This document shows positions 6,064 through 24,529 of a stretch of DNA of 37,281 nt, piece after piece (within the stretch, counting starts at the first letter, position 1; every line of letters begins with the position of its first letter). This DNA is from Desulfobulbus sp. (GTDB lineage Bacteria > Desulfobacterota > Desulfobulbia > Desulfobulbales > Desulfobulbaceae). Both the position numbers and the translations under genes were made by a program. Under the pieces are notes generated by a model that saw only the letters and a list, made by a program, of their open reading frames with translations, was not told where the DNA came from and did no database searches. The stretch lies in the NCBI GenBank assembly GCA_012729435.1, contig JAAYDD010000135.1, positions 1 to 37,281 on the forward strand, read 5' to 3'.

Positions 6064-8397
6064 TCAGATATCTTTGACCCACATCAAGACAACTCGACGC
6101 AACAGATTCATCATCACCGCAAGCAGGAGCGATCCAAGAAAGACGGCGACGATCACCGAACCGGGCAAAGGTGCTGTGATCTGTCCCGAAACCGCCACCG
6201 CGACACCGATGATAATATCGATAACAGAGGCTGCAACCAGCCTGCCGGATGGCAATGTCTCCCAGAGAGCATGGCGGGTGCGAATTGCATATAGTGCTGC
6301 CTGACCGGAAAAAACCAGGGTTATGAAGGCCAGGGTTGTCAGTGCCTCAGGTGCGAGGTGCAGCTGAAAAGTACCGATCGCCAGAACAGTGCCTGCAAAG
6401 ATCAGTTGCACCACCCCGAGCACGGCGCCGGTTATCACCAGGGCATCAACACGCCAGACATTCGGCTTCTGTGACGGCACAACCCGGTCTACGGCAATGG
6501 CCATTGACAGAAAATCACCAACGACCAGCAGGACAATCATTAACAGAGGAGTAAGAATTGCATGTCCGGTCATGAAAAACCCGACCGCAATGAACAGTAC
6601 TGTAGATATTTTCTTGACAATCGAATTGAGAGCATACGTCTGGACCTTACGAAACGCCTTCCGTCCCTCCTCGACCGCAGCCATAACACCGTTCAGTCCC
6701 GGCTCGGTCAGAACAAGCCCGGCAGCAGCCTTGGCTATGTCTGTTGCCTGTGAAACGGCAATGCCCATATGCGCCTGACGCAATGCCGGAGCATCGTTGG
6801 CACCGTCTCCACACATCCCCACAGTATGCCCTGCCGTCTGCAGGTTGTGAACCAGGGTAAACTTATCCTCCGGCAACACACCAGCAAATACGGTGCAGCC
6901 ATCGGGCTGAAGTTGCACCGCGACATCATCCTTTGAGCAGACACGGCCGGTCAGACCAACCTGACGTGCCACTGCTTCAGCAGTAGCCGGCGCATCGCCG
7001 GTCACCATCAGCATTCTGACACCATGATCTTGCAGACGACTGATCAAAGCGGCAGCATCCTCACGCGGCGGATCGCTCAACGCTATGAGGCCTGCAATCT
7101 CCAGCCCCTTTTCGGTACCCTGTGCCACTGCCAGAACCCGATAGCCCTGTGCTTCCAGTTCCATGGCATCTTTGTGCAGATCATGGTCCGCATTCACCGC
7201 CGTCTCAGCAATAACAGCAAAGGCTCCCTTCACAACGTGTCGAACCGGTCCCCCCTGAGGATCTGCGATAAACGCCTCCGCCCTTTTTGTTGTCGGGTCA
7301 AAAGGGAGAAATGACAGACGGTACGACAGGTCATCAACCGAAGGCGCCGCGATACGGATCGCCGTGTCCACCGGATCCGCCCCGCCATCGGAGCTCGCCA
7401 GGACCGCCAGTTCAAGGAGTTGGGGCCCGGTGAGCTGTCCGGCAGGACGCGTCTGAGTAACCTGCAGCGAATTACGGGTCAGAGTTCCGGTCTTGTCCGA
7501 ACAGAGCACATCCATGGTCCCCGCCTCATCAAGTGCAGAAAGACGGGTGGCCAGTACACCGCGTTGTGCCAGGGTATGGGCGGCAAGAGCGGCTACCATG
7601 GTGAATGTTGCCGGCAGAGAGACAGGAATCGAGGCAAGCACCGCTGTCAGAATGATCGGTTCAATCACCGCAAACTCCAAACCGCGGTACCGGGCATAGC
7701 CAACAAGACCGATAATGATAATCCCATTGAAAAGGGCGAGATTACGTACGATGTGAAGCACGGCGGTCTGCTGAGAACCCGTTGCATGTGCTGTTTCAAT
7801 GAGTTCGGCGGTCCGTCCGAACTTTGTACGTATTCCCGTTGCTGTGACCACCGCCTCCGCTTCTCCTCTGCGCACAAGAGTACCGGCATGGGCAACAGCG
7901 TTACTGCCGATCTCGACCGGTATGGACTCGCCGGTGAGCATTGACTGATCCAGTAGCAGTTCACCGGACGTCAACCGGACATCGGCAGGGACCACTCCGC
8001 CCAGAGTCAACTTGACAAGATCTCCAGGGACAACCTCCCGGGCGGGAATCGTCTTCCATACCCCATCTCTGTGTACAGTGGCATTCAGAGCAAGCCGCGA
8101 TTTTAAAGCGGCAAGTGCTGCACGGGCGCGTCCCTCCTGAATCATTGCCACCACTGCGTTGAAAACAATAAGCGCGGCAATGATGGCACCCTCGAAATAC
8201 TTGTCGAGCCAGAGCTCGAGCCCGATGGCCGCCTCAAGCATCCAGGGGACTGGGGCCCAGAATTTCTCAAGTACACGTTTAACAAAACGTGCCTGCGGCA
8301 CTGCGATTTCATTGAGACCGTATCGTCGCAGCTGTTCCTCTGCCTCAGCAGCGGTCAAACCTGTGACCGTAATATTTCCATCTGATTGAAACTTCAT
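6064..8397 (-). CDS. P3A-type plasma-membrane proton-translocating P-type ATPase
   Basis: 777 aa with TGES (MLTGESIPVE), DKTGTLT phosphorylation motif, MVTGDAPATAEAVARQVG and MCGDGANDAPALRQAHMGIAVSQATDIAKAAAGLVLT. Confidence 0.93.
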   Translation of the reverse strand: MKFQSDGNITVTGLTAAEAEEQLRRYGLNEIAVPQARFVKRVLEKFWAPVPWMLEAAIGLELWLDKYFEGAIIAALIVFNAVVAMIQEGRARAALAALKSRLALNATVHRDGVWKTIPAREVVPGDLVKLTLGGVVPADVRLTSGELLLDQSMLTGESIPVEIGSNAVAHAGTLVRRGEAEAVVTATGIRTKFGRTAELIETAHATGSQQTAVLHIVRNLALFNGIIIIGLVGYARYRGLEFAVIEPIILTAVLASIPVSLPATFTMVAALAAHTLAQRGVLATRLSALDEAGTMDVLCSDKTGTLTRNSLQVTQTRPAGQLTGPQLLELAVLASSDGGADPVDTAIRIAAPSVDDLSYRLSFLPFDPTTKRAEAFIADPQGGPVRHVVKGAFAVIAETAVNADHDLHKDAMELEAQGYRVLAVAQGTEKGLEIAGLIALSDPPREDAAALISRLQDHGVRMLMVTGDAPATAEAVARQVGLTGRVCSKDDVAVQLQPDGCTVFAGVLPEDKFTLVHNLQTAGHTVGMCGDGANDAPALRQAHMGIAVSQATDIAKAAAGLVLTEPGLNGVMAAVEEGRKAFRKVQTYALNSIVKKISTVLFIAVGFFMTGHAILTPLLMIVLLVVGDFLSMAIAVDRVVPSQKPNVWRVDALVITGAVLGVVQLIFAGTVLAIGTFQLHLAPEALTTLAFITLVFSGQAALYAIRTRHALWETLPSGRLVAASVIDIIIGVAVAVSGQITAPLPGSVIVAVFLGSLLLAVMMNLLRRVVLMWVKDI

Positions 8398-8744: not shown

Positions 8745-10850
8745 TCAAAACCCGCTTTCCCGGATAAGAACCGCGAGCAGCTGCCGGCCCATTTCCGCCA
8801 GCCTGCTCTTTCCCGGGGTCTCGATACGGGCGGTTCCCCGCACTTCCCTATTCATCGGCAACGGCTCTGCAAGTTCTAGCCGCACCCGATAAAGGGTATC
8901 TGCCGGCGTCATGGTTGCAGGTTCGTCACGTGTAGCAATGGGCCCGCCCCGCCGGGCATCAAACAGTGGTGAAACCAACTGACTGCAGGGGCTGGTCTCG
9001 ATATCCGTGACCGTTCCGGAAAACGCCTGCCATCCCCGTTCGGGGCGGAACAGAGCGGATGCACCAAGATACACCTGATCCACCTGCCGCTGCTCAACGT
9101 ACACATCAACCACCCATCTGGCCGGGTCAATCAGAAGACCGACCTGAATTTGCGGGCTGATCCATGTTCCTTCCCGCAGCAGCGGATCATTATCCAGCCA
9201 GAGACCGGTGAAGCCGGCGCGCACCTCAAGGCGGTTCTGTTCATCTTGCACCGCTGCTGTCTCTGCTAGCTGCATTGCCAGCTGCCCGCTGACAACCGGA
9301 CGCTGATCCATCTCGTCGGACTGGACACTCAGACCCGCCAACTTTTGCTGGAGACCTTGGACCAGGGCCTGATTCTGTTTATTCCGGGCAACAAGATCCG
9401 GAGACTCAAACTGGGCCAGCACCTCTCCTGCCTGCACCATTCCTGTCGGGTGCAGGTAAACAACCTGTGCCGCAAAAGGGCTGAACACCAGCTGCTGTCG
9501 GCCGGGATGCGCCACAGCCGGAGCACCGACATGGGATTCCCAGGGCCAGGCCAGTGCAGTTATCCCTGTCATCAGTACAACAACAAGTCCCGCAAGGCGG
9601 CCACGACCGATCTCACGCCAGCGCCGGATCCATAATCCGAGCTCCGTGGTAATCGGCCGGAGGATAAACCAGCTGATCTCGACCACAAACAGTATCACTC
9701 CCAAGGCTTTGAAAAAGAAAAAGTAGACTGCAGCAGCGATTCCGGCAAATACCACAAGACGATAGCACCAGGTCATGAAGGCAAAGAGGATCAGCCAGAA
9801 TCGCATCTGTCGGGAAAAAGACTCGGTATCGGTCTCCTGCCATCCGAACAGCCGGTTACGCAGCCAGTTCCTGGCCAGATTTCCTGATCGTTCGTGAAGA
9901 TTGGGAATATCGAGCAGATCGGAGAGGATGAAATAGCCGTCAAAACGCATGAACGGGCTGGCGTTGATGGCCAGAGAGACAACCAATCCGGTGGTGGCTG
10001 CATAAAGGGCAGCCTGGCGAGCCGGTCCGTCGACCAGCAGCGCCCATGCCAGGGTTGCAAGTCCGGCCAGTACGAGTTCACAGCCGACTCCGGCAACGGA
10101 GACCGCCAATCGTTGTCTTGCTGAACGAAGTTTCCATGACTCGCCGACATCGGTGTACAACATCGGCCACAACACCATCAAAGCTATTCCCATATGACCG
10201 ACACGCACACCAAAGTGCGTTGCCACCAGGGCATGCCCTAGCTCATGACAGGTTTTACAGACAATGATCGCCAGCAGAAAACCGAGTATACCGGCTGGTG
10301 TGATCAAACCGGCCACACTGTGGGTAAACACATCCCACTGGCGGGTGGTAAGAAATACACCCAGCAGACTGGCAACAACCAGGAAGATACGTCCGCTGCG
10401 ACTTGCAAGCGGTCGTACCAGGGGCAGTATCATCCTGAGTATCCGTTCCGGTCGGACCAGCGGGATCCGGACAAACAGGTAATGACATAACCACCAGCGC
10501 CAATGGTGCCAGGTCAATACCCTGGAGGTGGCGGCCATCCGGGCCATGGCTTCACCATCAAGGCGCAGCAGCTGATGATATTCAAGAAAACGGGCAAAGG
10601 CCGCGACCTGTTCAACGGCCACGGACATGGGAGTTGACGCGGTAACTGCAGCAGCAATCCGGTCGGCCTGCGGCGACCAGTGCCGCAGACACTCGAACTC
10701 CAGCCAGCCGATACGGAAAAATCGATTGGAAACAGGATCCTGGATCGTCCAGGCAGGAGAGCCGTCCCGGTTCGGTGCCGCCTGATGCAACTGCAGATCC
10801 TGGCGTAACGGCGGCAGGAGTGGCGTTGCAGTACTCACCATCCGGTCCAC
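8745..10850 (-). CDS. M50 (site-2-protease-like) membrane metalloprotease fused to a C-terminal HlyD/lipoyl-type adaptor domain
   Basis: 701 aa; zinc motif CKTCHELGHALVATHFGVRVGHMG, downstream NASPFMRFDGYFILSDLLDIPN; several TM segments; then adaptor-like region (GRQQLVFSPFAAQVVYLHPTGMVQAGEVLAQFESPDL...VRAGFTGLW). N-terminal WTIQDPVSNRFFRIGWLEFECLRHW resembles a PqqD-like module. Confidence 0.85.
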   Translation of the reverse strand: MDRMVSTATPLLPPLRQDLQLHQAAPNRDGSPAWTIQDPVSNRFFRIGWLEFECLRHWSPQADRIAAAVTASTPMSVAVEQVAAFARFLEYHQLLRLDGEAMARMAATSRVLTWHHWRWWLCHYLFVRIPLVRPERILRMILPLVRPLASRSGRIFLVVASLLGVFLTTRQWDVFTHSVAGLITPAGILGFLLAIIVCKTCHELGHALVATHFGVRVGHMGIALMVLWPMLYTDVGESWKLRSARQRLAVSVAGVGCELVLAGLATLAWALLVDGPARQAALYAATTGLVVSLAINASPFMRFDGYFILSDLLDIPNLHERSGNLARNWLRNRLFGWQETDTESFSRQMRFWLILFAFMTWCYRLVVFAGIAAAVYFFFFKALGVILFVVEISWFILRPITTELGLWIRRWREIGRGRLAGLVVVLMTGITALAWPWESHVGAPAVAHPGRQQLVFSPFAAQVVYLHPTGMVQAGEVLAQFESPDLVARNKQNQALVQGLQQKLAGLSVQSDEMDQRPVVSGQLAMQLAETAAVQDEQNRLEVRAGFTGLWLDNDPLLREGTWISPQIQVGLLIDPARWVVDVYVEQRQVDQVYLGASALFRPERGWQAFSGTVTDIETSPCSQLVSPLFDARRGGPIATRDEPATMTPADTLYRVRLELAEPLPMNREVRGTARIETPGKSRLAEMGRQLLAVLIRESGF

Positions 10851-12187
10851 TCACGTAAGGTGGCCAACGGGCGGCGCAACAGGACATAGACAAGGGGCAC
10901 CCGTTCACCGTATATCTTGGCAGTACCACGCAACCCGAGACGAACAGAGAGCACGGCATCGGTAAACTCTGCACGCAACCGGTAACCGGCCACACCGGCA
11001 GGTGATACCACCGCCTGAAAACTGCTTTCACTGACAACAGCCTGAAGAGGGTGAAGCGGATCAACAGTGAGAAATAATCTGGCCGGGGCATTGACCTCAA
11101 AGGCGACCGCCTCTGCTGCCGGTACATGGATCAGCACACCGGGTTTTTCGGGGTTGGCCAGTTGCATGATGCGCTCACCGGTGCTCACCGGCCGGCCTAT
11201 CCAGTCATCAGGATCACTGAAAACAACCACCCCGTCACGTTCGGCAGTGATATCCACCCGATGCAGCTGAGCCTGGATTGCCGCCAATTCAGCACGTTTT
11301 TCCTGGGCACGTCCGGATAACAGGGCCAGGCTGCTTCTGCCCTGCGGGGTATCAAAGGCCTTCTGAGTTGCAGCCAGCAGTTCAGCATCAGCAACAGCCA
11401 CCGCTTTCTGAACAATTTCCCGACGACTGCGAAGTGTCGTATCATCCAGGGAAAAAAGGGGCTGGCCGCTCTTCACCGGTTGGTTGGGCCGGACATGTAC
11501 ACTTTTAATAACACCGTCCAGAGGTGAAGCCACAACCACCGTGTCCAGAGAAATGACCTCGGCCGGAGCCAGCACACTCTGCCGCACCGGAATCAGAGAC
11601 AGGACGATGAGTGCTGCCACGGTCAGCCATTTAAAACGGCTCACTCTTTTCAATCTGCTGCGCCAGGTGTCGGAATGCCGGGCGGCAAGCATCTCCCAGC
11701 AGTACCCCCAGGTCTGAGCAACCCGCTGCAGGATCGCTTTCTGAACCGGCGACGGCGGATTTTCAAGCAGGAAACACACCCACCCAAGAACATCGCCCGC
11801 ACGGTCGGTCAGCGCCAGAACACATACCCCGATCGGCCACCACTCCTCCCACCCCTCTCGAAGATCCGCCGGTAGAATCCGTCCCATCTCTTCGAGGGTC
11901 AGCCAGCTGCAAGGTTCGGCAGACTGCTTTTTCAGCCATGGCCACAAACGACGCAACCAGAGCACATAGGGGGTATCTTCACCGATCCTTGCCAGGCCGG
12001 AAATCGCCAGTAAAGAACCGTCCGTGTCATCCAGGACAAGGGCCTGACGAAACGGCAGCGCGGTAAAGGCATCGTTGGCAATGGAAAAGGTTAACTCTTC
12101 AAGAGATACGGCCCGGCGGGCACGGGCCTCCAGTGCGGTTGCCACAGCATCAGGCAATGCAGTATCGGCATGCATAATGACCGACAT
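10835..12187 (-). CDS. HlyD-family efflux adaptor with an N-terminal soluble (possibly GAF-like) region
   Basis: About 190 aa soluble N-terminus, one TM (WLTVAALIVLSLIPV), then HlyD/lipoyl motifs (VVASPLDGVIKSVHVRPNQPVKSGQPLFSLDD; ITAERDGVVVFSDPDDWIGRPVSTGERIMQL). Overlaps the downstream gene start by 16 bp. Confidence 0.85.
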   Translation of the reverse strand: MSVIMHADTALPDAVATALEARARRAVSLEELTFSIANDAFTALPFRQALVLDDTDGSLLAISGLARIGEDTPYVLWLRRLWPWLKKQSAEPCSWLTLEEMGRILPADLREGWEEWWPIGVCVLALTDRAGDVLGWVCFLLENPPSPVQKAILQRVAQTWGYCWEMLAARHSDTWRSRLKRVSRFKWLTVAALIVLSLIPVRQSVLAPAEVISLDTVVVASPLDGVIKSVHVRPNQPVKSGQPLFSLDDTTLRSRREIVQKAVAVADAELLAATQKAFDTPQGRSSLALLSGRAQEKRAELAAIQAQLHRVDITAERDGVVVFSDPDDWIGRPVSTGERIMQLANPEKPGVLIHVPAAEAVAFEVNAPARLFLTVDPLHPLQAVVSESSFQAVVSPAGVAGYRLRAEFTDAVLSVRLGLRGTAKIYGERVPLVYVLLRRPLATLREWTGW

Positions 12188-12990
12188 CAGAAAGTGACAG
12201 GAAAGCGGGCTACGCCGGTCATACCGGGAAGAAGTTCCTTTTCCGGACTGTCCAGTCTGCCCTCCAGTTCTACAGTCTGGGCCGCAGCATCAACCCTGGC
12301 GTTCACCGCAGTTACCCTGGCTGCATAGCTTTTACCGGTCTCATCAATATCAACCTCAAAGGGAGTGCCCTCCTTGAGACTGATGAGCATCGTGGAGGGC
12401 ACATTGAGACGGAGTTTGAGCGGCCCGCTGCCGATCAGATCAATGAGCGGAGCGCTGAGCTGCACTCCCTGATAGGCTTTGACATGCACCTTGGCCACCC
12501 TGCCGGTGAACGGAGCGGTCACCGTGCACTGGGAGACGTGGGCCTGTGCCAGACCGACTGCTGCAGCAGCCTTGTCAGCTGCTGCCGATGCCTGTAAGAC
12601 CTCCAGATCTCCGGCAGCATCAAGTTTGCGCAACTGTTTCTTGGTTACCAGCGTCTCCCGGGCTGCGGTCTGCTCGGCCTGGGCTATGCGCAACCTGGCG
12701 GTCTGCTCCTTGCAGTCAAAAGCGGCCAGTACGTCTCCCCTGTTCACTGATCCGCCGAGTGTGGTATTCAGACTGATCAGGGTACCGGTCATCTGAGCAG
12801 CCAGAGTGGTCTCTGTCTCCGGACTCAGGAGGACCCGGATTGCGTTGGGATCAACGAGAAGATCCGGTTGGTCAGCCCTGCCGGCATCTCCGGTTCTGGC
12901 AGATGTTGCAAGAGGAAGCGCCAGCAGAACGGTCAGCAAAACCGCACAGACTAACAGTCTACTTTGTAGCGTCATGACGGGTACCTGCAA
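12187..12990 (-). CDS. RND/HlyD-type periplasmic adaptor subunit
   Basis: 267 aa; N-terminal signal region; lipoyl halves (LAAQMTGTLISLNTTLGGSVNRGDVLAAFDCKEQ; VTAPFTGRVAKVHVKAYQGVQLSAPLIDLI), C-terminal EKELLPGMTGVARFPV. Real start may be the ATG at 12975. One-nt stop/start overlap (TGATG) with the next gene. Confidence 0.88.
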   Translation of the reverse strand: MQVPVMTLQSRLLVCAVLLTVLLALPLATSARTGDAGRADQPDLLVDPNAIRVLLSPETETTLAAQMTGTLISLNTTLGGSVNRGDVLAAFDCKEQTARLRIAQAEQTAARETLVTKKQLRKLDAAGDLEVLQASAAADKAAAAVGLAQAHVSQCTVTAPFTGRVAKVHVKAYQGVQLSAPLIDLIGSGPLKLRLNVPSTMLISLKEGTPFEVDIDETGKSYAARVTAVNARVDAAAQTVELEGRLDSPEKELLPGMTGVARFPVTF

Positions 12991-14506
12991 AGGTTACAAG
13001 TTGCCACTGTTCCATGGTCTTCTTGATGGCATCGGATACCGTGTACACATCGGAGCTCTCAATTGCCTCAGGGAGCACATCCAGGCCAATGGAGTTATAC
13101 AGCCGGCCCCAGGCAGCCTGGGCATTGGCATAGGAGGCATACCGCTGGTATTCGGCCAGCAGGGCACGCGCCTCCGTGCGGATGACCTCCAGTTCGGAAT
13201 CAAACTGGGCTTTGGCTGCAGACCGGGCATAGGTCAATAACCGCTGGTCAACCCGCAGACTCTCCTCGGCAAACTCCAATTCCGCCAAAGCCATACCGTA
13301 CCGCTGGGCACCGATCCGAACCTGGGTCAGCACTGCCATGGACAGGGCAGTTCGGCGCAGGTCATCGGTCTTGTTCTGATGCTCTAAGGATCTTTCCAGT
13401 GCCGGCCACTGCGCCAGCTTCATCACGTTCCAGCTCAGGCGGGCACCGACATCGGCCCAGTTGGCATTGTAGTTGTACGTGTTGGAGTCATAGTGTATCC
13501 CGGCATCCAGGCCAAGATTCGGCCAGAGCAGCAGTTTGGCAGCCTTGATATCGTTTTCAGTCACCCTCTTCCGATACCACTCCTCCATGATCTCCGGTCG
13601 TTTTTCCAGAGCCACGCGCTCCAGGGTTTCAAGGTTAACCGGTAGCGACGGTAACGGCTGTTCCTTTTCATCGGCAAGGGTGTAACTCACACCTGGCGGC
13701 AAGGACATGAGTGCGGTCAGTTCTGTTCGTGCCAGATCAAGATCCTGCCGACGAAGGGTAAGCAGACTGACAGCATCCAGCAGAGCCCGCTCATAGGCCA
13801 GGACCTCTGCCTGCGGCATCAGACCGTCCTTCTCCACCTGTTTGGCGCGACTCAGGGCATGGTTCACCCTGCCAAGCAGGGCATCAACCCGGCCGACCAG
13901 ACGCTGCGCTCCAAGCGCCCGCCAGTAACTGTTGCGTACATCCTGTAAAACGTTCTGCGCCACCTTGCGCCGGCGCTCCTCAGCCATCAGTGACTGATCA
14001 GCCTTCTGTTTGGCACGGTAATAGGAAACACCGAAGTCAAGCACATTCCAGGAAAAGGTGAGATCCGCCAGAGTGCGCTCCCGCTCCTGAGAAGTGGAGG
14101 GCCGCAGGGTTTCTATACCATCCTCTATCCCGATGGAACGTCCCCCGGAATCGTTGTTCCGGTTGACATAACCGGCACCGGCCACGACCTTTGGCAGCAT
14201 CTCATACGTTGCCGCATCATGCAGATCTTTGGCCAGAGCCTGCTCCATAAGTTTGAGACGGTAATCAAGATTGTACTTCAATGCCCGTGCACCGACATCG
14301 TAAAAGGTGATGGGCCTTGTGACCGGCTCCTGATCCGCGTACATCAGCTGGTGGTCCTGATCGACCCGGGCCTTGATCTCATCGTCGGTATAGGGTTTTG
14401 GCTGTACCGCACCGCATCCGCTCACTATCAGAGCCACACCGCACAAACTCACCAGACGGCGAACCAGGGGAAACTGTAACAAAGAACAGGTGGTAGATAC
14501 ATTCAT
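12959..14506 (-). CDS. TolC-family outer-membrane efflux protein
   Basis: 515 aa lipoprotein-like N-terminus (LIVSGCGAVQPKPY) and two coiled OEP-like halves (YYRAKQKADQSLMAEERRRKVAQNVLQDVRNSYWRALGAQRLV; QYASYANAQAAWGRLYNSIGLDVLP style). Confidence 0.87.
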   Translation of the reverse strand: MNVSTTCSLLQFPLVRRLVSLCGVALIVSGCGAVQPKPYTDDEIKARVDQDHQLMYADQEPVTRPITFYDVGARALKYNLDYRLKLMEQALAKDLHDAATYEMLPKVVAGAGYVNRNNDSGGRSIGIEDGIETLRPSTSQERERTLADLTFSWNVLDFGVSYYRAKQKADQSLMAEERRRKVAQNVLQDVRNSYWRALGAQRLVGRVDALLGRVNHALSRAKQVEKDGLMPQAEVLAYERALLDAVSLLTLRRQDLDLARTELTALMSLPPGVSYTLADEKEQPLPSLPVNLETLERVALEKRPEIMEEWYRKRVTENDIKAAKLLLWPNLGLDAGIHYDSNTYNYNANWADVGARLSWNVMKLAQWPALERSLEHQNKTDDLRRTALSMAVLTQVRIGAQRYGMALAELEFAEESLRVDQRLLTYARSAAKAQFDSELEVIRTEARALLAEYQRYASYANAQAAWGRLYNSIGLDVLPEAIESSDVYTVSDAIKKTMEQWQLVTFAGTRHDATK

Positions 14507-14529
14507 AATCGCTCAATTCACAGTAAAAG

Positions 14530-17439
14530 TTATCGGTTGGAAGAGGTAACGGCCAGTTGCCCGTTCCCGGTTGTCAGCGGTGCCTGCGTCCCTGCGGCAC
14601 GAAGTTGTTCACCAAAAGACAGTGCACCCTTTGCAGATGCCTGGTGCCGGTTTGACGGCCCTGCAGCCGGCTCTGACCCAGGAACGGTCTCTCCGGTGGT
14701 GCGGTCAACAGACTGACCCGCAGGCAGCAGCTCCTGCATATCAAATGCACCCAGATCAGGAGTGGGCAGTAACCGGTCACTTCCCAGAGAAAGCCTCGTT
14801 ACCCGGCCCTGGACAAACTGATCAATAAAACTGCCCTGGGCCTGTGCATCCCGCACGGCGGGCGTCACAAAAACCGCAGGATCCATGCCCAGTCCGCTGC
14901 CCAGTGATCTGCTTCGAACCTCCGGCGGCTGTACCTGCTCAGGACGACTCAGAACCCGCCACTGATCAGCTCGACTCTCGGCCTGGGCCTGTTCCACCAC
15001 CTGCAGGACATACATTGCCGGATCCATGTCAAGGGAGGGTCGGATAATGCCGTGGCGCACCTCCTCTCCAAACCAGACACCGGGTAAATCTACCTGGTCA
15101 CCAAACAATGGCGGCTGACCCAGCGGCGGTAACGAGGGAGTGGGCGGATCAATCACTGCCTCGGGAGTCACCTGTACCGTGACCCATCCGTCAGCAGTTC
15201 CCCCCTGACCGTCGCTGATTGTGTAGGAAAACCGGACCGCCCCCTGGACCCCCGGATTGGGTGTAAAGACCACAACACCGTCATCCTGGAGGGTAACGAC
15301 TCCTTCAGGAAGAACAGTTGACTCACCGGGGAGCAGAGGAACTCCGGCAATATGGGTGACTGTTAACGGATCGCCATCCACATCATAATCGTTTGCCAGC
15401 AGAGGAATATTCACTGCGCGGCCGTCAGGTGAGGCTGCATGGTCATCCACTGCCACCGGCGGATCGTTCACCGGGCCCACGCGGATAACCACCTGGGCTG
15501 AGGAGAATCCCCCGGCACCGTCACTTATGGTGTAGCTGATGACCGCAGTACCGTAAAAATCCCGGGCCGGATCAAAACGCAGGGTGCCGTCCGCATTGAT
15601 GGAAACATTGCCCTGGCCCGGATCAACGGTCGCGGCCACAACAGTCAGCGGATCATCTTCAGGATCAGTATCGTTTGCCAGCACATCGATGCTGTCCAGG
15701 GGTGTATCTTCCAGGATGTCATAAGGTCCGTCATCCCGTGCAACGGGCGGATCGTTGGTACCGTGGATGGTGATCGTCAGGGAGGCGGTACTCCGGTCAC
15801 CGTCCCCATCGGCAATTGTATAGGTGAAGGTTTCAGTTAATGTTTCTCCGGGGCGAAGCGCGTTGACAACCGGGTTGTCATTATCCAGCGTGTAGGTATA
15901 ACTGCCGTCTGCTGCAAGTACAAGCTCGCCGTACGCTCCGGACAGTGGTGTGCCTACGCTTCCTGGTGTTGCCCCGAATGCAACCCCAACCACCGGCGTG
16001 TCGGTATGATCCGCACCGATACGGTCAGCAGCATCGCCCGATGCACTGCCGGTGACAACGTTACCCGAGGTAACAGAGGTCTCATCACCCACCCCCTCCA
16101 CAACGCTGTTGACATCATCTTCGGCAGTGGGCATGTCATCGACCACACGAATGATCAGGCTGCCATGTCCTGCTGCACCGCCCGCATCCGTCACTGTCAG
16201 GGGTACGATTTCCTGCCATGCATCCTCACCCGGAGTGGATCGTGGCCGCTGCAGGGTATAGGTATAGGTCAACTCGCCGCTCACCGGTACACCACCAACC
16301 TCGGCCGTTGAAGTGAACCCGGTTAACGTTATACTCCCCTCTACAGTGGGAATCGTGACCGGATTATCACCAAGGTTCTGGAGCTGCCTTAATGGAAGTG
16401 TAGTACCGTTGATCGTAACTGTACTTAAACCATCAGCTGTTGCCAGCGAAATGCGGCCTTCATTGGTTTCCCTGGTATCGGTCTCTGAGGTCAATCCGGC
16501 CTCAAACACAGTCAGATGCCCCGGTTCCGCTCCATTTTCATCCACCGCCCCGATGGTTGGGGCACCGTCGGTGACTCCATTGATGGTAATCGTCAGCTGA
16601 GCTGTATCGGAAAGATCAGTGGGATCTGTTAACTCGTAGGTAAAGTATTCCTGCAATGTCTCTCCGGTTTTAAGAGCATTGACAATCGGGTTTTCATTAT
16701 CAAGGCTGTAGATCCAGCTGCCGTCAGCACCGAGACGTAATGTACCGTAAAGCCCGATGACTGTCGTTCCGTTGGTGCTGTCCGTTGCAGGTGGAACACC
16801 GGTCATGGATCCACCCTGAGCCTCTGTACCGTGACGTATCCCGGTGATGTTCAGCTCGTTATTCGTGTTATCCACATCATAATCGTTTGTTTTGACGTTG
16901 CCGCTGACTGAAACGTCATTTTCACTGATCACAGCCTGATCATTCACAGCAACCGGCGGATCAGGAACAGAGATCACCTGCAGTCTGGTCTCCACAACAT
17001 TTGACCACTGTGCGCCGTTTGTTGCCAGATCACTGTTGGCATCACGCACCTGCCACCTGATGACCCGCTCATCCTCGGTCGGATCTTCGCTTTCGTTGGA
17101 GTAGGTCACAGTCTGCATCGCTGTGATCACCGCTGCAGTCCCTGCTGCAGGTCCGCTTAGTGTCAGAACTCCTGTGGTGGGATTGTAATTCTGCGACCAC
17201 CCGGAAGGCAGAGCCGTGTCTTCAGCACTGAGGACATCGTCATTACTCAGGCCGGAGACGATCTGCACCCGGACTTCGGTCATCTGTGTATCATCCACAT
17301 CAGTTAACAACCAACCCATCGGCTCCAGAAGCAAAGGGGGATCATTTTCAGTAAACACCCGCTCTGATGCTGGTTTGGATAAAACCGGTGCATCGTTAAC
17401 AGCCACCACATTGACTGTCCGGGTGGTGGTGCCCTCGCC
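14530..17439 (-). CDS. C-terminal part of the giant cadherin/VCBS-repeat surface protein, in frame with the upstream ORF after an amber codon
   Basis: Open frame directly continuous with 17440..23145 (same phase). Contains repeats ending in VAVNDAP, GTNDPP and GPVNDPP, and VCBS-like units (YGELVLAADGSYTYTLDNDNPVVNALRPGETLTETFTYTIADGDGD). The track's start is a GTG at 17409 with no obvious SD. Confidence 0.8.
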   Translation of the reverse strand, partial: GEGTTTRTVNVVAVNDAPVLSKPASERVFTENDPPLLLEPMGWLLTDVDDTQMTEVRVQIVSGLSNDDVLSAEDTALPSGWSQNYNPTTGVLTLSGPAAGTAAVITAMQTVTYSNESEDPTEDERVIRWQVRDANSDLATNGAQWSNVVETRLQVISVPDPPVAVNDQAVISENDVSVSGNVKTNDYDVDNTNNELNITGIRHGTEAQGGSMTGVPPATDSTNGTTVIGLYGTLRLGADGSWIYSLDNENPIVNALKTGETLQEYFTYELTDPTDLSDTAQLTITINGVTDGAPTIGAVDENGAEPGHLTVFEAGLTSETDTRETNEGRISLATADGLSTVTINGTTLPLRQLQNLGDNPVTIPTVEGSITLTGFTSTAEVGGVPVSGELTYTYTLQRPRSTPGEDAWQEIVPLTVTDAGGAAGHGSLIIRVVDDMPTAEDDVNSVVEGVGDETSVTSGNVVTGSASGDAADRIGADHTDTPVVGVAFGATPGSVGTPLSGAYGELVLAADGSYTYTLDNDNPVVNALRPGETLTETFTYTIADGDGDRSTASLTITIHGTNDPPVARDDGPYDILEDTPLDSIDVLANDTDPEDDPLTVVAATVDPGQGNVSINADGTLRFDPARDFYGTAVISYTISDGAGGFSSAQVVIRVGPVNDPPVAVDDHAASPDGRAVNIPLLANDYDVDGDPLTVTHIAGVPLLPGESTVLPEGVVTLQDDGVVVFTPNPGVQGAVRFSYTISDGQGGTADGWVTVQVTPEAVIDPPTPSLPPLGQPPLFGDQVDLPGVWFGEEVRHGIIRPSLDMDPAMYVLQVVEQAQAESRADQWRVLSRPEQVQPPEVRSRSLGSGLGMDPAVFVTPAVRDAQAQGSFIDQFVQGRVTRLSLGSDRLLPTPDLGAFDMQELLPAGQSVDRTTGETVPGSEPAAGPSNRHQASAKGALSFGEQLRAAGTQAPLTTGNGQLAVTSSNR

Positions 17440-20400
17440 CTAGCCGGCGCCGCTTGATCCGTTATCCTGAACTGTATATGTCAGGGTACGGCTGGTTCTC
17501 GTGGCATCGCTGGTGGGATCCTCACTCGTACTCTCATAGGTCAGGCTACGTAGTACCTGCTGGTAGTGCTCCACAGTGTCGACACCTGTCAACATCAGGA
17601 CACCGGTCTCTTCATTGTACACAGCGGTGATACCGGTGCCGGTCACATCAACTGCCAGTACATCACCACTGACAAAACCGGAGCTGATCGCCACCTGGGC
17701 ACTCAGCATATGGGTGTCATCAAGATCAGTGATGGTCAGACCGGAATCCACAGTCTGTGGAGGATTATTTTCGGTATACGTTATTCCACTGCCACTGGAG
17801 AGGACCGGGTTGTCAATCCTCTGTTCGATGTTCACTGTCACATTCTGTGAGAAAGACAATGATCCGCCGCTTCCCTGATCCTGACCTGATCCGGCCGTCC
17901 CGCCGTCAGCATTCGAATTCTGGTCGTTGACAGTGAAGGTCAGCTCCACCGAATCCGGTGGCGCCTCGCTCGTGTTGCGGTAGGTTATGGACTGGAGCAC
18001 ACGATCAACAACATTTGCAGTGGCGTTACTGTTAAAGGTGATATGCAGCCGACCGTCAGTATTGGTGACGGTGCCGATCACAGTTGTACCGTTACGAAGG
18101 TCAGTGCCGTTCTGGTTGATCCCGGTACCACCGGATCCGGTAAAGCCAAAAACATCTTCACTGTCCTGTCCTTGACTGCGGTTGACGGTCAACTGTGCGC
18201 CGGCCCAGCTCGGATATATATCAAGCTCCGGATCCGTCAGTTGTGCATCCGGATCTATGACCACCGGAGGACCGTTTTCAACATAGGTGTTCGCAGAGAC
18301 CGCATCCAGATCTGCAAAACCTGGAGGGTCGTTCGTATCAGTGACATAAAAGGTACACTCACCTGTTGCAGTGAGGGAACCTCCAGAGCCGCCGATGGCC
18401 TCTCCACCGTTGCCCAGATCGTCAACTCTCATGCGGAAGGTAATGGCGCTATTGACGTTAGCATCCCCTGGCCGATAACTGACCGTGGCCAGAGCTGCAT
18501 CCAGATCTGCCTTGGTACCGGTAAGGGTGACGCGACCGGAATGAAGTCCGGTTACCGTGAGACCGGAGGTTTCAGTCACTTCAATATGGCCGTAGGGATT
18601 ACTGTGCGGATCAAGAGCTTCCAGGGTGATGGTGTACTCATCAGATGACACTTCAAATCCGGGCAGAGTATGGCTTCTGTCACGAATATCATCAAAGCCC
18701 AATGCATCACCACCTGTGAAGGTGAAGACTCCGGTCGAACCTGTTAAATAACGGGCTCCCACCGGCATGGTCACAGTCGGCGGGTCATTCACCGGAGTGA
18801 TGGCTATGTCAATCGTGGCAACAGCTGTGGAGGTCCCGCCGTCTTGACCTGTGTTCCCGTGATCGTCAACTTCAATGGTCAGACTATCATCACCGTTGTA
18901 GTCGGTGGCTCCCAGGTAGTGCAGGGCGGCCAGGGCCGCGTTCAGTCCATCTGTTGTTCCGCGAAGGGTCACATTCGACGAGCCCACTGCCCCGGCAACA
19001 ACGGTAACCCCTGCGGGCAGACCCGAACCGGAAGCACTGAAATAGATCCTCCCTTCACGTTCAGCTGTCAGGGTGACGGTCGTGGTATTGCTGTCAAAGG
19101 CATCGTCATCGACAAACGACAGCCCGTTGATACGGGTGCGTGTGTCCTCCAGGAGAGTAACCTGCGTTGGCGCAGTAATAACCGGCGGGTCATTCGTACT
19201 TGAGGCTGCAACCCGGATAGTGACACTGGCAACGTTGTTTGTATCATCAACTGCTGACCCGTCCTCATTGACCGGACCGCCGTTGGCACCACCGATCAGT
19301 TCACCGGATTCGTTACGGAGGCGATCATCTGCAGAAACCCTGATGGAGTATCCATCGCTATCAGGATCACTGCCATCAGCCAACCGGACCTGAACACGAT
19401 CCAGCGCAGCCTGCACATCGGCAAGCGAGCCCTGAAAGACAAGAGAGGACCCCTCTGCTGCACCGATGACTGTCACATTTGCCGGCACACCGCCGTTGAA
19501 ACTGAGCACCCCATACGGGTTCCCCCCGTCATCACGGAAGTCAACCCGTACCTGCATGAAGTCCTCCTCACCGGGACGCATGTCACCTCCAACATCCGGA
19601 TCTGCCAGGGTAATTGCGGGAAGGCTCACCCAAGTGACAGCCGAATCAACGGTCAGTCGTGCGGCTGAAACAGTGATGGCGGGAGGATCGTTGGCCGGCA
19701 GAATCTCAATATGGAAGGTTGCCGGGTCAGCGGTGGTTCCCTGGGGAGACGAACCATCTTCGTTGGCGCTGTAATCACCGTCACTGACCACATAGCTGAA
19801 GGAGTCAGAGGATGTTTCACTGCCGTTATGCCGGTACCGGATCAGCCCATGATCAAGATCGTCCTGGGTAAACACTGATCCTGTTGACAGTACCGTGCCA
19901 CCCAACATCAGCACACCGTTGGCCGGAGCCGAAGTTATCCGGTACTGCCGCTGTTCGGTCGTATTGTCAGGATCCTGATACACGAGATATCCGGTATCGT
20001 CTGTTCGCAGATCAGCCGATCCTTCACCGTTGGGGCCGGAGTAACCGGCGGCTCCCCAGATGGTGGTGGTTGATCCTTCAAGTACGGCTCTGCTCCCGAT
20101 AAGTTCCTGTTTACCTGCAAATTCCGGCGCATCGTTGACCGGAGTCAGTGTAATGGGAACGATCAGAGGTGTGCCTTCACTTGGCTGATTGGTCGCAGTG
20201 ACATCATCTTCTCCCACTCCCTGATCGTCAATTGGTACCAGGGTGAAAGCATCAGCATGGTTTTCACTGCCATCGTGCCGGTACTCGAGCCTGCCAGCGG
20301 AGAGGTCAGCAGCACTGATCACGGTACCGACAGTAACGAGCGTACCGTCCAGATACAGGCCACCGTGGCCGGGGACTTCTGTGATCCGGAAACTCAGGAC

Positions 20401-23145
20401 ATTGTCAACAGCATATCCCCCGGCCGGAGATGATCGATCCGCATCGGTCAGCACAATGTGAGCCTGAGTGATGGGAACAGTCTCTCCTTCCGCCCCAAAT
20501 ACCCGTTCACCCACCCGGGCCACCGGAGTGTCGTTTTGTGGAGTGATGTCCAGTTGAAAAACATGCGCGCTGCTTTCTGCAACACCGTTGGAAACCGTAT
20601 AGGTAAAACTGTCACTGAACACCTCATCACCGGCATGTTCGAAACGAATCCGCCCCTGATCAACGTCGTCCTGAGTAAAACTGTCGGAGTAGCTCAGGGC
20701 TGTACCGTTCAGGTACAGGGTACCGCTCTCGGGAAGAGAGATAAGCCGGTAGACCAGCTGACCGGCCGGAGTTGCAGGGGCAGAGGCCTGCAGGTCCGCA
20801 CTGGTGAGAACCACAGACCCGCTTTCAAAAAGTTCTGCAGCATTGTCTCCGCTGACTGACGGCGTACTGTGCGTTACAGCTGCGCCGGGTGTGTCACCGC
20901 CAAAAACCGGGGAGTTCTCGTTGATCTCCACAGTAAAGGTATTGACTGTCAAGGTGTCTGTTCCGTCATCATAGATGCCCCCATCCCGGGGGGTAGGATA
21001 GAGGCGACGATCGCCGTCCTTGACAGTGAACGACAGTTCCGCGGTGTGCGCCTCGCTTGCACGGTTGTAATACACGACCCGACCGGCATCGATATCAGCC
21101 TGGGTAAAACTTGATCCGATGATTAAACGTTGCCCGTTCACTGTGAAATAGCCCTCAGCCGGATCCGGTGCTGCGGTGACTGTATAGGTCAGGGTAATTG
21201 GCGGTGAATCCACATCCTCCACCTTCAGCATGTCCGCAGTGATGGTGAGAGAGAACTGTCCATCGGGCATGGTCTGGGGCACGTTTGTTACCAGAACCGG
21301 ATCATCGTTGTTGTTGATCACATCGATGACCACTCTCTCTACAGTGGACAGCGGCGTATCGGTTCCTCCGCCGCTGTCTGTGACACGAAGATCAAAACCG
21401 TCCGGAACACCGTTGGCCTCGGAACCGTCATGCGAGTAGGTAAGCAGGGTGAGATCATCAACTGCAAAAGGGACATCTGCACTTTCAATGGGCTCTCCTC
21501 CATAAAAGAGGGTCCCGTGTTCCGGCAGACCGGTGACCGCATAGCTCAGACGGTCAGAAGAGTCATCAGGGTCACTCACCGTCACGCTGCCCCGGGGACT
21601 GCCTGTGGCTGGAATAACACCTCCCCCGGCAAGGTTCACATGCGCTTCACCTTCAATGACCGTCACCCGGCCGATCACACTGGGTGGCTGATTCACCGGT
21701 GTTACAGTAATAGAAACCTCTTGATGAAAAAGCTGGCCACCGGCACCGTCGTCAACGATCACGGTGAAGCTGTCGCCGGTATTCGCCAGAACCTGGCTGC
21801 CGTTGTGGGTATAGCTCAGGTTGCCCAGTTGACTGGCCGCAAATGTTGAGCCCACGGCAAGCTCTGTTCCGGACAGCCGGATCGTCCCCTGACCGGGCAG
21901 ACTGGTTATTTTAAAGATAACCTGGTTCGCGGTGTTATCGATCTCGCGCAGGCCGAGCTGACTCTGCTCAAAACCGATGTCCGGAAACGGATCCACAGGC
22001 TGGAAGAAGACTTCCTCCCCTTCAGCAACCTCGACACCGGTACCGCCGGACCAGGTTGGCGCATCGTTCACCGGTGAAATGATGATACTGATGGTTCTGC
22101 TGATCGAGCTCTCACCGTCACTTACCTCCATGGTAACCTCTGCCGGACCGTTCTTGTCAGGCAGTCCCTGAAAGGTAAGGGTGGCAAGGGCCGTATTGAT
22201 ATCAGCAACTGTTCCGGAAAAACTGAGAGTGTCAGTACCGTCACCGCTGATGTTGCTCAGCCCTCCACTCTCTCCCAGCCTCAGGGTTCCGTCGGCCGTA
22301 GTGAAGGTTACGGTGAGCTGATCATCATCCGCATCCTCCACCGAGAGTCCGCTTAAAGGTAAAGGTTGATCTTCAGCCACAGTACGGGTTTCGACAGCTG
22401 TGTCGTTGATGACCGGTGCAGCCAGCAGATACTGATAGCTGTCACGCGCCGAAGCAGTGATGGCCGGCAAGGCCTCAATGGATCCGGTGCTGACCTCCAG
22501 GATCCAGTTGCCGCCCAGAGACATGGCACCGGTTGCATCGACCGAGGCCGCCACATCAGCACCGGTCATACCCGCCAGCTGAGAAAGAAGAAGAGCACCC
22601 TCTGCTCCTGCACCGATGTGACATCCGTACAGGAGGATATCTCCGCCGTCTGTCAATGAGGCGCCCCACAGTTGCAGCTGTTTGCTGTACTGAACCACGG
22701 TCGCAGCATCAATGTAGTCGCTGCCCAGAAAAAAACCGCCGCCCGTGCCGTGACTGATGATCTGAATCGAATCAACTGCTTCAAGGCTATCCAGCGCAGC
22801 GGCCGCTGCGGCAAAACCTGATTCGCCGACCTCAACAACAATAGCAGTGACATTGGCCGGCATATCGTCAAGCAGAGTGGCAGTATCGCGCACCCTGCCA
22901 TCAACAATGAGCAGCGTTGCCGATGCAGCGGCGCCGGCATCCGGTGGAGCATCCTGTTCAGTCTGCACCTCGGCCCTGTTGGTTACCGCCTCTGTCACCT
23001 GGTGACTGATCGTCTCTACTGTAAAATGGTGTTGCTCGGCAACAAGGTGATCATCCACCGCAGCCATTGCGGCACCATCAAAGAGGATACGCGGTTCAAG
23101 TGCAAAGGTGCATGCACGGGGAGGAAATGTTGGCAGGTTGTTCAT
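17440..23145 (-). CDS. Giant LEPR-XLL / DUF4347 / cadherin-CSPG-repeat surface protein, N-terminal part ending at an in-frame TAG
   Basis: ATG at 23145 (MNNLPTFPPRACTFALEPRILFDGAAMA; LEPR-XLL-type motif) is preferred over the TTG at 23271. DUF4347-like domain with IISHGTGGGFFLGSDY and ILLYGCHIGAGAEG. Many repeats ending in (P/x)VNDxP and CSPG/cadherin-3-like YxHxGSE units. Confidence 0.88.
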   Translation of the reverse strand: MNNLPTFPPRACTFALEPRILFDGAAMAAVDDHLVAEQHHFTVETISHQVTEAVTNRAEVQTEQDAPPDAGAAASATLLIVDGRVRDTATLLDDMPANVTAIVVEVGESGFAAAAAALDSLEAVDSIQIISHGTGGGFFLGSDYIDAATVVQYSKQLQLWGASLTDGGDILLYGCHIGAGAEGALLLSQLAGMTGADVAASVDATGAMSLGGNWILEVSTGSIEALPAITASARDSYQYLLAAPVINDTAVETRTVAEDQPLPLSGLSVEDADDDQLTVTFTTADGTLRLGESGGLSNISGDGTDTLSFSGTVADINTALATLTFQGLPDKNGPAEVTMEVSDGESSISRTISIIISPVNDAPTWSGGTGVEVAEGEEVFFQPVDPFPDIGFEQSQLGLREIDNTANQVIFKITSLPGQGTIRLSGTELAVGSTFAASQLGNLSYTHNGSQVLANTGDSFTVIVDDGAGGQLFHQEVSITVTPVNQPPSVIGRVTVIEGEAHVNLAGGGVIPATGSPRGSVTVSDPDDSSDRLSYAVTGLPEHGTLFYGGEPIESADVPFAVDDLTLLTYSHDGSEANGVPDGFDLRVTDSGGGTDTPLSTVERVVIDVINNNDDPVLVTNVPQTMPDGQFSLTITADMLKVEDVDSPPITLTYTVTAAPDPAEGYFTVNGQRLIIGSSFTQADIDAGRVVYYNRASEAHTAELSFTVKDGDRRLYPTPRDGGIYDDGTDTLTVNTFTVEINENSPVFGGDTPGAAVTHSTPSVSGDNAAELFESGSVVLTSADLQASAPATPAGQLVYRLISLPESGTLYLNGTALSYSDSFTQDDVDQGRIRFEHAGDEVFSDSFTYTVSNGVAESSAHVFQLDITPQNDTPVARVGERVFGAEGETVPITQAHIVLTDADRSSPAGGYAVDNVLSFRITEVPGHGGLYLDGTLVTVGTVISAADLSAGRLEYRHDGSENHADAFTLVPIDDQGVGEDDVTATNQPSEGTPLIVPITLTPVNDAPEFAGKQELIGSRAVLEGSTTTIWGAAGYSGPNGEGSADLRTDDTGYLVYQDPDNTTEQRQYRITSAPANGVLMLGGTVLSTGSVFTQDDLDHGLIRYRHNGSETSSDSFSYVVSDGDYSANEDGSSPQGTTADPATFHIEILPANDPPAITVSAARLTVDSAVTWVSLPAITLADPDVGGDMRPGEEDFMQVRVDFRDDGGNPYGVLSFNGGVPANVTVIGAAEGSSLVFQGSLADVQAALDRVQVRLADGSDPDSDGYSIRVSADDRLRNESGELIGGANGGPVNEDGSAVDDTNNVASVTIRVAASSTNDPPVITAPTQVTLLEDTRTRINGLSFVDDDAFDSNTTTVTLTAEREGRIYFSASGSGLPAGVTVVAGAVGSSNVTLRGTTDGLNAALAALHYLGATDYNGDDSLTIEVDDHGNTGQDGGTSTAVATIDIAITPVNDPPTVTMPVGARYLTGSTGVFTFTGGDALGFDDIRDRSHTLPGFEVSSDEYTITLEALDPHSNPYGHIEVTETSGLTVTGLHSGRVTLTGTKADLDAALATVSYRPGDANVNSAITFRMRVDDLGNGGEAIGGSGGSLTATGECTFYVTDTNDPPGFADLDAVSANTYVENGPPVVIDPDAQLTDPELDIYPSWAGAQLTVNRSQGQDSEDVFGFTGSGGTGINQNGTDLRNGTTVIGTVTNTDGRLHITFNSNATANVVDRVLQSITYRNTSEAPPDSVELTFTVNDQNSNADGGTAGSGQDQGSGGSLSFSQNVTVNIEQRIDNPVLSSGSGITYTENNPPQTVDSGLTITDLDDTHMLSAQVAISSGFVSGDVLAVDVTGTGITAVYNEETGVLMLTGVDTVEHYQQVLRSLTYESTSEDPTSDATRTSRTLTYTVQDNGSSGAG
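22450..22930 (-). other. DUF4347 domain region (clan CD peptidase-like His/Cys motifs) within the giant protein
   Basis: LLIVDGRVRDTATLLDDMPANVTAIVVE...DSIQIISHGTGGG...GGDILLYGCHIGAGAEG...LGGNWILEVSTGSIEAL. His codon at 22750-22752, Cys codon at 22621-22623 (plus coordinates). Boundaries approximate. Confidence 0.8.
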
Positions 23146-23438: not shown

Positions 23439-24377
23439 CTACCGATGAGCCCGGATATACCAGCTGCGGATCAGCTCGTAGTGATTGCTGTGGGTGCGGA
23501 GTGTCCACCAGAGACTGCGAGGTTCGGTAACCTGCCAGACCGGTGTCAGTTCACCTTGAGAATCGGTGAGCAGACGGGCGATATTGGCCACTCCCTTACC
23601 GGCAAACCGGCCTGTCGGTGTGCCGCCCAGCCATTTGGCAGGTGGTGTAATTGTGGTGGACCAGGAAAACGGATCGGACAGGAGGAATTGAGCGTTTTGC
23701 CTGCGGGTAACCCGATTCATTTCCTGTAGATGCCTAAGGGGCGAGGGCACCTTGTCCACCAGGTTGAGCGAGGAGAAAATCGCCGACGAGTTGCGGGGAA
23801 ACGGCAGGGCCAGGGCATCGGCAACAATAAACTCCACCTGCTGCCTGCGCCAGTGTTCGGGCAGGGTGATGGTCACCTCACGGTGAAGGAGCCCCTCCTC
23901 TTTCAGCCAAAAGGTGATCGTCCCTTCCTGCATGAGGCGCCGGGCAACCCGGATAAAGGCAAGAGAGGTGTCAATACCCACCGCCAGGTCACAACGGGTG
24001 CTCAACTCAAAGGTAAAACGCCCCACTGCCGCTCCGGCGTCCAGAGCTATCCCGCGCTGCGGCTGGATCAGGGCCGCCCAGTCAGCATAGGCGGTTGATG
24101 CCTGCTCCTCCCCGAGCAGATCACCGTACTGACCCCACAGGTATGCAGAAACCGCTGCATCGGTTTCATAGGGATCATCCATTGAATGGTTATCCAACGG
24201 CTGCGGGGTAAGCATGGCCACTCCGTCAACAATGGGGAACCGGCAGCCGTGCCGTGTGCAGATCAGGGTACCAGTATCAATATCCTCACCAACTGTACAC
24301 TCCTCTTCAAGTGTGAGACAGTGTTCGGCGGGCAGGCAACGGGGGCAGATCAGATGATTGAGCAGCAACTGTTTCAT
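23439..24377 (-). CDS. SAM-dependent methyltransferase with N-terminal Trm112-like zinc-ribbon region
   Basis: ATG at 24377: MKQLLLNHLICPRCLPAEHCLTLEEE...TLICTRHGCRFPIVDGVAMLTP (Trm112-like) then GIALDAGAAVGRFTFELSTRCDLAVGIDTS and VEFIVADALALPFPRNSSAIFSSLNLVDKVPSPLRHL. Confidence 0.82.
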   Translation of the reverse strand: MKQLLLNHLICPRCLPAEHCLTLEEECTVGEDIDTGTLICTRHGCRFPIVDGVAMLTPQPLDNHSMDDPYETDAAVSAYLWGQYGDLLGEEQASTAYADWAALIQPQRGIALDAGAAVGRFTFELSTRCDLAVGIDTSLAFIRVARRLMQEGTITFWLKEEGLLHREVTITLPEHWRRQQVEFIVADALALPFPRNSSAIFSSLNLVDKVPSPLRHLQEMNRVTRRQNAQFLLSDPFSWSTTITPPAKWLGGTPTGRFAGKGVANIARLLTDSQGELTPVWQVTEPRSLWWTLRTHSNHYELIRSWYIRAHR

Positions 24378-24529
24378 AAGCCTTCTCCATGGACCGGTTC
24401 TCGGAAGACACCCTCTTCCCGTATCGGGGGTGCAGGCAGATGCATGGCTGTGGTTTACAAGCATTCACAGATCGGCTAGATTCGCAGCCGAACCAAACCT
24501 ACCACATCATCAGTTTCAGGAGTACCACT

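Follow-up and report, generated by a model that had tools for sequence, protein, structure and literature searches.

The 37,281-nucleotide stretch of Desulfobulbus sp. DNA analysed here (the window) carries a five-gene unit that encodes a giant, motif-tagged repeat protein together with a TolC-like outer-membrane protein (OEP), a short periplasmic adaptor, a second HlyD-type protein with a GAF-like domain (GAF-HlyD) and a fusion of an M50 peptidase with HlyD (M50-HlyD). The partnership of such giants with a TolC/HlyD/M50 apparatus devoid of an ABC exporter is real, conserved, mobile and specific; its role in export, processing or both is what we infer from it. On balance, we lean towards the view that the unit is a mobile cassette dedicated to exporting and processing one giant surface protein, and that M50-HlyD and GAF-HlyD would replace the ABC exporter in it. 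The cassette is read on the minus strand from the ATG at 23145 and comprises:

17443..23145, minus strand, giant protein, N-terminal part, 1,901 aa: LEPR-XLL, DUF4347, six Cadherin_3 and Cadherin_4
17440..17442, minus strand, in-frame TAG splitting the giant ORF, not in the orthologue of G010 (same genus)
14530..17439, minus strand, giant protein, C-terminal part after the TAG, 968 aa: Big_9/Cadherin_4/5/VCBS/tandem-95 repeats
12959..14506, minus strand, TolC/OEP-family outer-membrane protein, 515 aa
12187..12990, minus strand, short periplasmic adaptor, 267 aa: RND_mfp/HlyD_D23
10835..12187, minus strand, GAF-like domain, TM, HlyD (GAF-HlyD), 450 aa
8745..10850, minus strand, M50-HlyD, 701 aa

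A first-pass annotation of this DNA had described five minus-strand ORFs packed head to tail. Strand and packing were right; the count was not, since the TAG splits the giant and makes the ORFs six. The spacings it gave were all recovered at the start and stop coordinates. The giant stop lies 23 bp from the TolC ATG (14506), TolC and adaptor overlap by 32 bp with a TTG start (12990) or by 17 bp with an internal ATG (12975), adaptor and GAF-HlyD by 1 nt (12187), and GAF-HlyD and M50-HlyD by 16 bp (GTG 10850). The domains named there, LEPR-XLL, DUF4347, OEP, the HlyD types and M50, were likewise matched by Pfam or NCBIfam profiles. Promoter and terminator scans at both ends of the cassette yielded nothing usable above chance.

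The giant starts with a short leader, followed at residue 17 by the LEPR-XLL motif LEPRILFDGAA (NF012209, residues 15-32, 18.1 bits against a curated cut-off of 17). DUF4347 (PF14252) occupies residues 78-241 with 156 bits, compared to a gathering score of 24.6 (E 9e-46), and Pfam identified the repeats as Cadherin_3/4/5 and Big_9. The window giant showed no Sec-type signal and no RTX match in Pfam. Its N-terminal ORF extends over 1,901 aa from the ATG at 23145 to the TAG at 17442-17440, past which the same frame stays open for 968 aa more. In G010, where the five genes stand in the same order, the giant is intact as a single ORF of 2,883 aa. Repeats cross the stop, the G010 copy is uninterrupted and purifying selection is alike on the two sides of the TAG (dN 0.123/dS 0.469 versus 0.098/0.451). 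The TAG is therefore very recent or a sequencing or assembly error; the source of the window is a fragmented metagenome-assembled genome (2.56 Mb, 376 contigs, 82.7% complete). Recoding of the TAG is unlikely because the neighbouring gene at 23439-24464 also terminates in TAG and because the same-genus giant contains no stop.

Within DUF4347, His132 was found in 79 of 81 sequences and Cys175 in all 81; this near-invariant pair may correspond to the His-Gly/Gly-Cys dyad of clan CD (caspase-like) cysteine peptidases. The core of the AlphaFold model had a pLDDT above 90. Foldseek returned Tce1 as best match (3.8e-5) and caspase and legumain at about 2e-3 to 5e-3 with probabilities up to 0.98; these two and a cysteine protease domain were interspersed with Rossmann-type and flavodoxin folds. 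The model is consistent with a His/Cys domain of predicted caspase-like fold, at E-values that are weak (about 2e-3), and DUF4347 may reasonably be supposed to process itself in a caspase-like way.

M50-HlyD consists of an N-terminal soluble domain, a multi-TM M50 region, a C-terminal adaptor domain and a conserved LIRESGF tail. Its zinc motifs are HELGHA (202-207) and NxSPFxRFDGY (296-306), and H202, E203, H206, N296, P299 and D304 are invariant across 48 M50-HlyD sequences. Peptidase_M50 (PF02163) matched with 28.3 versus 27.2 bits, and profile matches included MjS2P and RseP (3b4r, 7w6x); the C-terminal part is MacA/EmrA/MexA-like. The protein thus resembles these site-2 proteases in its HExxH and N-x-x-P...DG motifs, its TM context and its profile match, whereas the additional N-terminal soluble and C-terminal adaptor domains set it apart from them. 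M50 enzymes are proteases and are not known to act as channels, and the unit shows no evident energy source, both of which weigh against an export role. The nearest curated families to the M50 part were daptide HExxH (NF041824, E 2e-48) and YydH/LiaK (NF058609, E 2e-7), both below cut-off. These RiPP-maturation metalloproteases act on peptide precursors; here, however, the M50 part is fused to a HlyD adaptor and has a giant protein as its partner, and no RiPP modification genes were seen beside the cassette. An AlphaFold model of M50-HlyD (pLDDT 87.8) gave a bbb-aaa N-terminal domain, and the likeness of this domain to PqqD lies in that predicted topology only. A PqqD/RRE identity was dropped: no Pfam, NCBIfam or PDB profile matched, and hhalign against real PqqD stayed inside the shuffled range. 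Leader recognition by this domain found no sequence support in these PqqD homology tests.

The TolC-like protein matched PF02321 (E 1e-33), missed the TolC threshold specific to T1SS (48.5 versus 225 bits) and has a lipobox-like N-terminus (LIVSGC), and the short adaptor carries a Sec-type signal. Pfam recognised three HlyD-type proteins in the cassette (HlyD_3/RND_mfp, HlyD), none of which reached the type I HlyD model TIGR01843 (36 versus 209 bits). GAF-HlyD has one TM at about residues 188-206, behind an N-terminal soluble domain. A Pfam GAF match to this domain was found in 4 of 33 close relatives (best 4e-4) and in homologues of the second architecture described below (2e-9), and is absent from the window protein. 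Judged from the relatives, with the window protein itself unmatched, the domain may be regarded as GAF-like.

The unit is not particular to the window. With each species represented by one genome, the scan recovered at least 581 relatives of M50-HlyD, the best 80 of which were used for the counts of gene order. These 80 stem mainly from beta- and gammaproteobacteria, plus Desulfopila, Magnetococcales and alphaproteobacteria, and 70 of them show the complete order TolC, adaptor, GAF-HlyD, M50-HlyD. An ORF of at least 1,000 aa lies directly upstream in 54 of the 70, and most of the others reach a contig edge. Of 31 genomes, 28 had a DUF4347 ORF on the same strand as M50-HlyD and no more than 25 kb away; the matching went by coordinates and strand, and one case (G065) is possibly due to chance. 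The usual distance was 11-18 kb on the upstream side or 1.5-2 kb on the downstream side. At four loci (L036, L066, L097, L103) the DUF4347 giant is situated directly downstream of M50-HlyD and not upstream of TolC.

Co-occurrence was counted in 276 genomes of one class, whose selection was independent of the finding. DUF4347 and M50-HlyD were found together in 28, singly in 8 and 15, and neither was found in 225 (p 1.6e-20, kinship ignored). For LEPR-XLL (only frames of at least about 490 aa counted) and M50-HlyD the corresponding numbers were 26/4/17/229 (p 4e-21, kinship ignored). The latter association persisted within DUF4347-negative genomes (p 4e-6, kinship ignored), which indicates that the machine is paired with the motif as such and rules out DUF4347 as its sole partner. 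M50-HlyD and giant counts were equal or nearly so in 13 genomes, in 12 of which several DUF4347 proteins were scored complete; this agreement covers most of the multi-copy genomes. The first-pass annotation had called the apparatus dedicated to the giant and had named conserved gene neighbourhood as the check. With gene order, same-strand giants nearby and co-occurrence all pointing the same way, the linkage is confirmed and the word dedicated is well supported. Its further proposal, secretion or surface anchoring with M50-HlyD and a second HlyD protein instead of the ABC exporter, stays a hypothesis, as linkage and motif pairing are no proof of transport.

In the M50-HlyD tree, the window protein and that of G010 are nested in a group of copies from Desulfopila and from beta- and gammaproteobacteria (100/99), and copies from the same genus (G019/G005, G020, G023, G004) are placed elsewhere. 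Because these copies occupy separate clades, the cassette was gained more than once within one genus, by horizontal transfer between lineages. Such repeated acquisition is as expected of a self-contained functional unit.

The N-termini of 80 DUF4347 proteins show the pattern LE-x-R-x-[LMIV]-[FLYM]-[DSA] (the LExR motif) after a short, often basic leader, and none of the motif-bearing giants has a Sec signal. Two types of machine accompany them. In type 1, GAF-HlyD has about 450 aa and occurs with TolC; in type 2, it has about 600 aa and occurs with M50-HlyD. At the two type-2 loci examined (L187 10130-18232, L188 7527-19083), M50-HlyD is followed by a HlyD adaptor that matches SPOR weakly and then by a giant with a LEPR-LLSAD-type motif. 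Position 8 of the motif was D in 9 of 9 type-1 versus 0 of 16 type-2 genomes (p 5e-7), the flavours having been assigned by eye. In three genomes (G051, G057, G060) an additional giant shows the second flavour; the type-2 M50-HlyD is also present there, so that they own both machines. Motif-less DUF4347 proteins are few. Those of G098, G178 and G214 have a Sec-type signal and those of G260 and G286 neither motif nor Sec-type signal, all five genomes being without a machine; in G134 the motif-less protein and M50-HlyD lie on different contigs. Since the flavour tracks the machine type and motif-less proteins occur largely in machine-less genomes, the LExR motif is a good candidate for an address tag; co-inheritance of cassette and giant could give part of the pattern. 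Type-1 giants share a further motif near the C-terminus, [FLI]-x-x-Q-[LVI], found in 62 of 69 compared to 8.5 expected in shuffled tails, an excess to be read as descriptive because the expression was picked after viewing the tails. It typically takes the form SFxxQLRxAA about 14-50 residues before the end, and the window giant has SFGEQLRAA. Several LEPR ORFs of 5,000-14,000 aa were seen in G279 and G158.

From these elements we infer the following scheme. M50-HlyD and GAF-HlyD would make up an inner-membrane platform that takes the place of the ABC exporter, and the periplasmic adaptor and the TolC-like lipoprotein would finish the conduit to the surface. The N-terminal LExR-x-[LMI]-[FLYM]-[DS] motif with its short leader, in a protein free of a Sec signal, would serve as the giant's address for the M50-HlyD platform, with processing probably at or near this motif. 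DUF4347, positioned right behind it, may mature or release the giant by self-cleavage once outside or engaged. The C-terminal FxxQL(R/K) motif could be a second machine-specific determinant, acting in a late export step or in retention. The unit itself includes no ABC exporter.

This last point has to be weighed against what is known of large adhesins secreted by type I systems (LapA/LapBCE, BapA, SiiE). As in those systems, a giant repeat-rich protein without a Sec signal is encoded beside a TolC-like OEP and HlyD-type adaptors, and the repeats match the NCBIfam models BapA/LapF, VCBS and T1SS-143, in most cases with scores under the cut-off. In contrast to them, the giant has a conserved N-terminal LExR motif, and of the three adaptors one is joined to M50 and another to a GAF-like domain. 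It is conceivable that an unlinked ABC transporter of the HlyB/LapB type, working together with the TolC and adaptors of the cassette, exports the giant by reading its C-terminal motif, the task of M50-HlyD and DUF4347 then being confined to processing. Full-length LssB/LapB-type T1SS ABC proteins indeed exist, one each, in the window genome (G000) and in G010, both unlinked to the cassette. T1SS substrates are moreover giant, repeat-rich, without Sec signals and equipped with C-terminal signals, and the FxxQL motif is conserved here. One published LEPR-XLL giant has RTX/serralysin domains at its end (PMC10868602), a feature of T1SS substrates, and this counts against export without an ABC protein. 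The gene neighbourhoods speak otherwise. T1SS ABC and HlyD genes are usually adjacent, and yet no ORF with ABC-ATPase motifs stood among the cassette genes at any locus of the best 80 of at least 581 M50-HlyD relatives, nor in the window unit. Furthermore, three draft assemblies with M50-HlyD (G005, G029, G047) contained only partial matches to the T1SS ABC model, of about 330 bits at most, which resemble those of general ABC exporters; none above that value reached across the N-terminal portion of this model. We regard an unlinked exporter as unlikely, if still worth serious attention.

Also unlikely in our eyes is that the giant crosses the inner membrane in another way, that TolC and the HlyD proteins retain it on the cell surface and that a GAF-controlled M50-HlyD cleaves it on a signal to release or activate it, much as LapD/LapG act on LapA, by other means. 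The intact S2P zinc motifs, the GAF-like sensory domain in front of a single TM and the His/Cys peptidase-like DUF4347 close to the N-terminus would all suit such a release. However, motif-bearing giants have no Sec signal to take them across the inner membrane, and a full set of OEP and adaptors exceeds what release needs. Chance proximity of multidrug or metal efflux genes to an adhesin gene is strongly disfavoured: the TolC and RND_mfp matches are general ones, but the cassette has no RND, MFS or ABC pump, its gene order is kept between phyla, motif and machine covary and copy numbers agree. For the export-and-processing cassette that we prefer, a wider version can be put forward tentatively, and we would rather expect it to fail than to hold: a widespread ABC-independent, TolC-dependent secretion of giant proteins, in which a fusion of intramembrane metalloprotease and adaptor would read the N-terminal LExR tag, a caspase-like domain would mature the product and two machines would serve two flavours.

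Many of the largest proteins of bacteria bear LEPR-XLL (NF012209) or DUF4347 (PF14252), and the window giant belongs to both families. Among 5.39 million open papers, 4 contain DUF4347 and 2 LEPR-XLL; the passages on them name the domains only in passing, and we found there no account of how these giants get to the surface. Nor did we find in that open literature a description of the operon or of a machine reading the motif; the novelty of the cassette/giant partnership is accordingly provisional. New here are the two LExR flavours with their machines, the C-terminal FxxQL motif, and the His/Cys pair and caspase-like predicted fold of DUF4347. The pairing of motif and machine offers a testable answer on surface delivery, with a short tag and four named genes. 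If transport without an ABC protein proves true, it would be a distinct export route for giants, spread over beta-, gamma- and alphaproteobacteria as well as Desulfobacterota, and it could account for surface adhesins of many environmental bacteria.

Two neighbours of the cassette may be mentioned. A P-type H+-ATPase of the plasma-membrane type (6064-8397; TIGR01647, 594 bits, just under the cut-off of 615.5) starts 347 bp past M50-HlyD on the same strand. It was dropped as a candidate energy source, since the 2 kb following M50-HlyD in G010 gave no match to it. The gene just upstream of the giant (23439-24464) encodes a methyltransferase with a Trm112-like N-terminus and a partial match to the OvoA C-terminal domain, and it adjoins the giant in G010 too.
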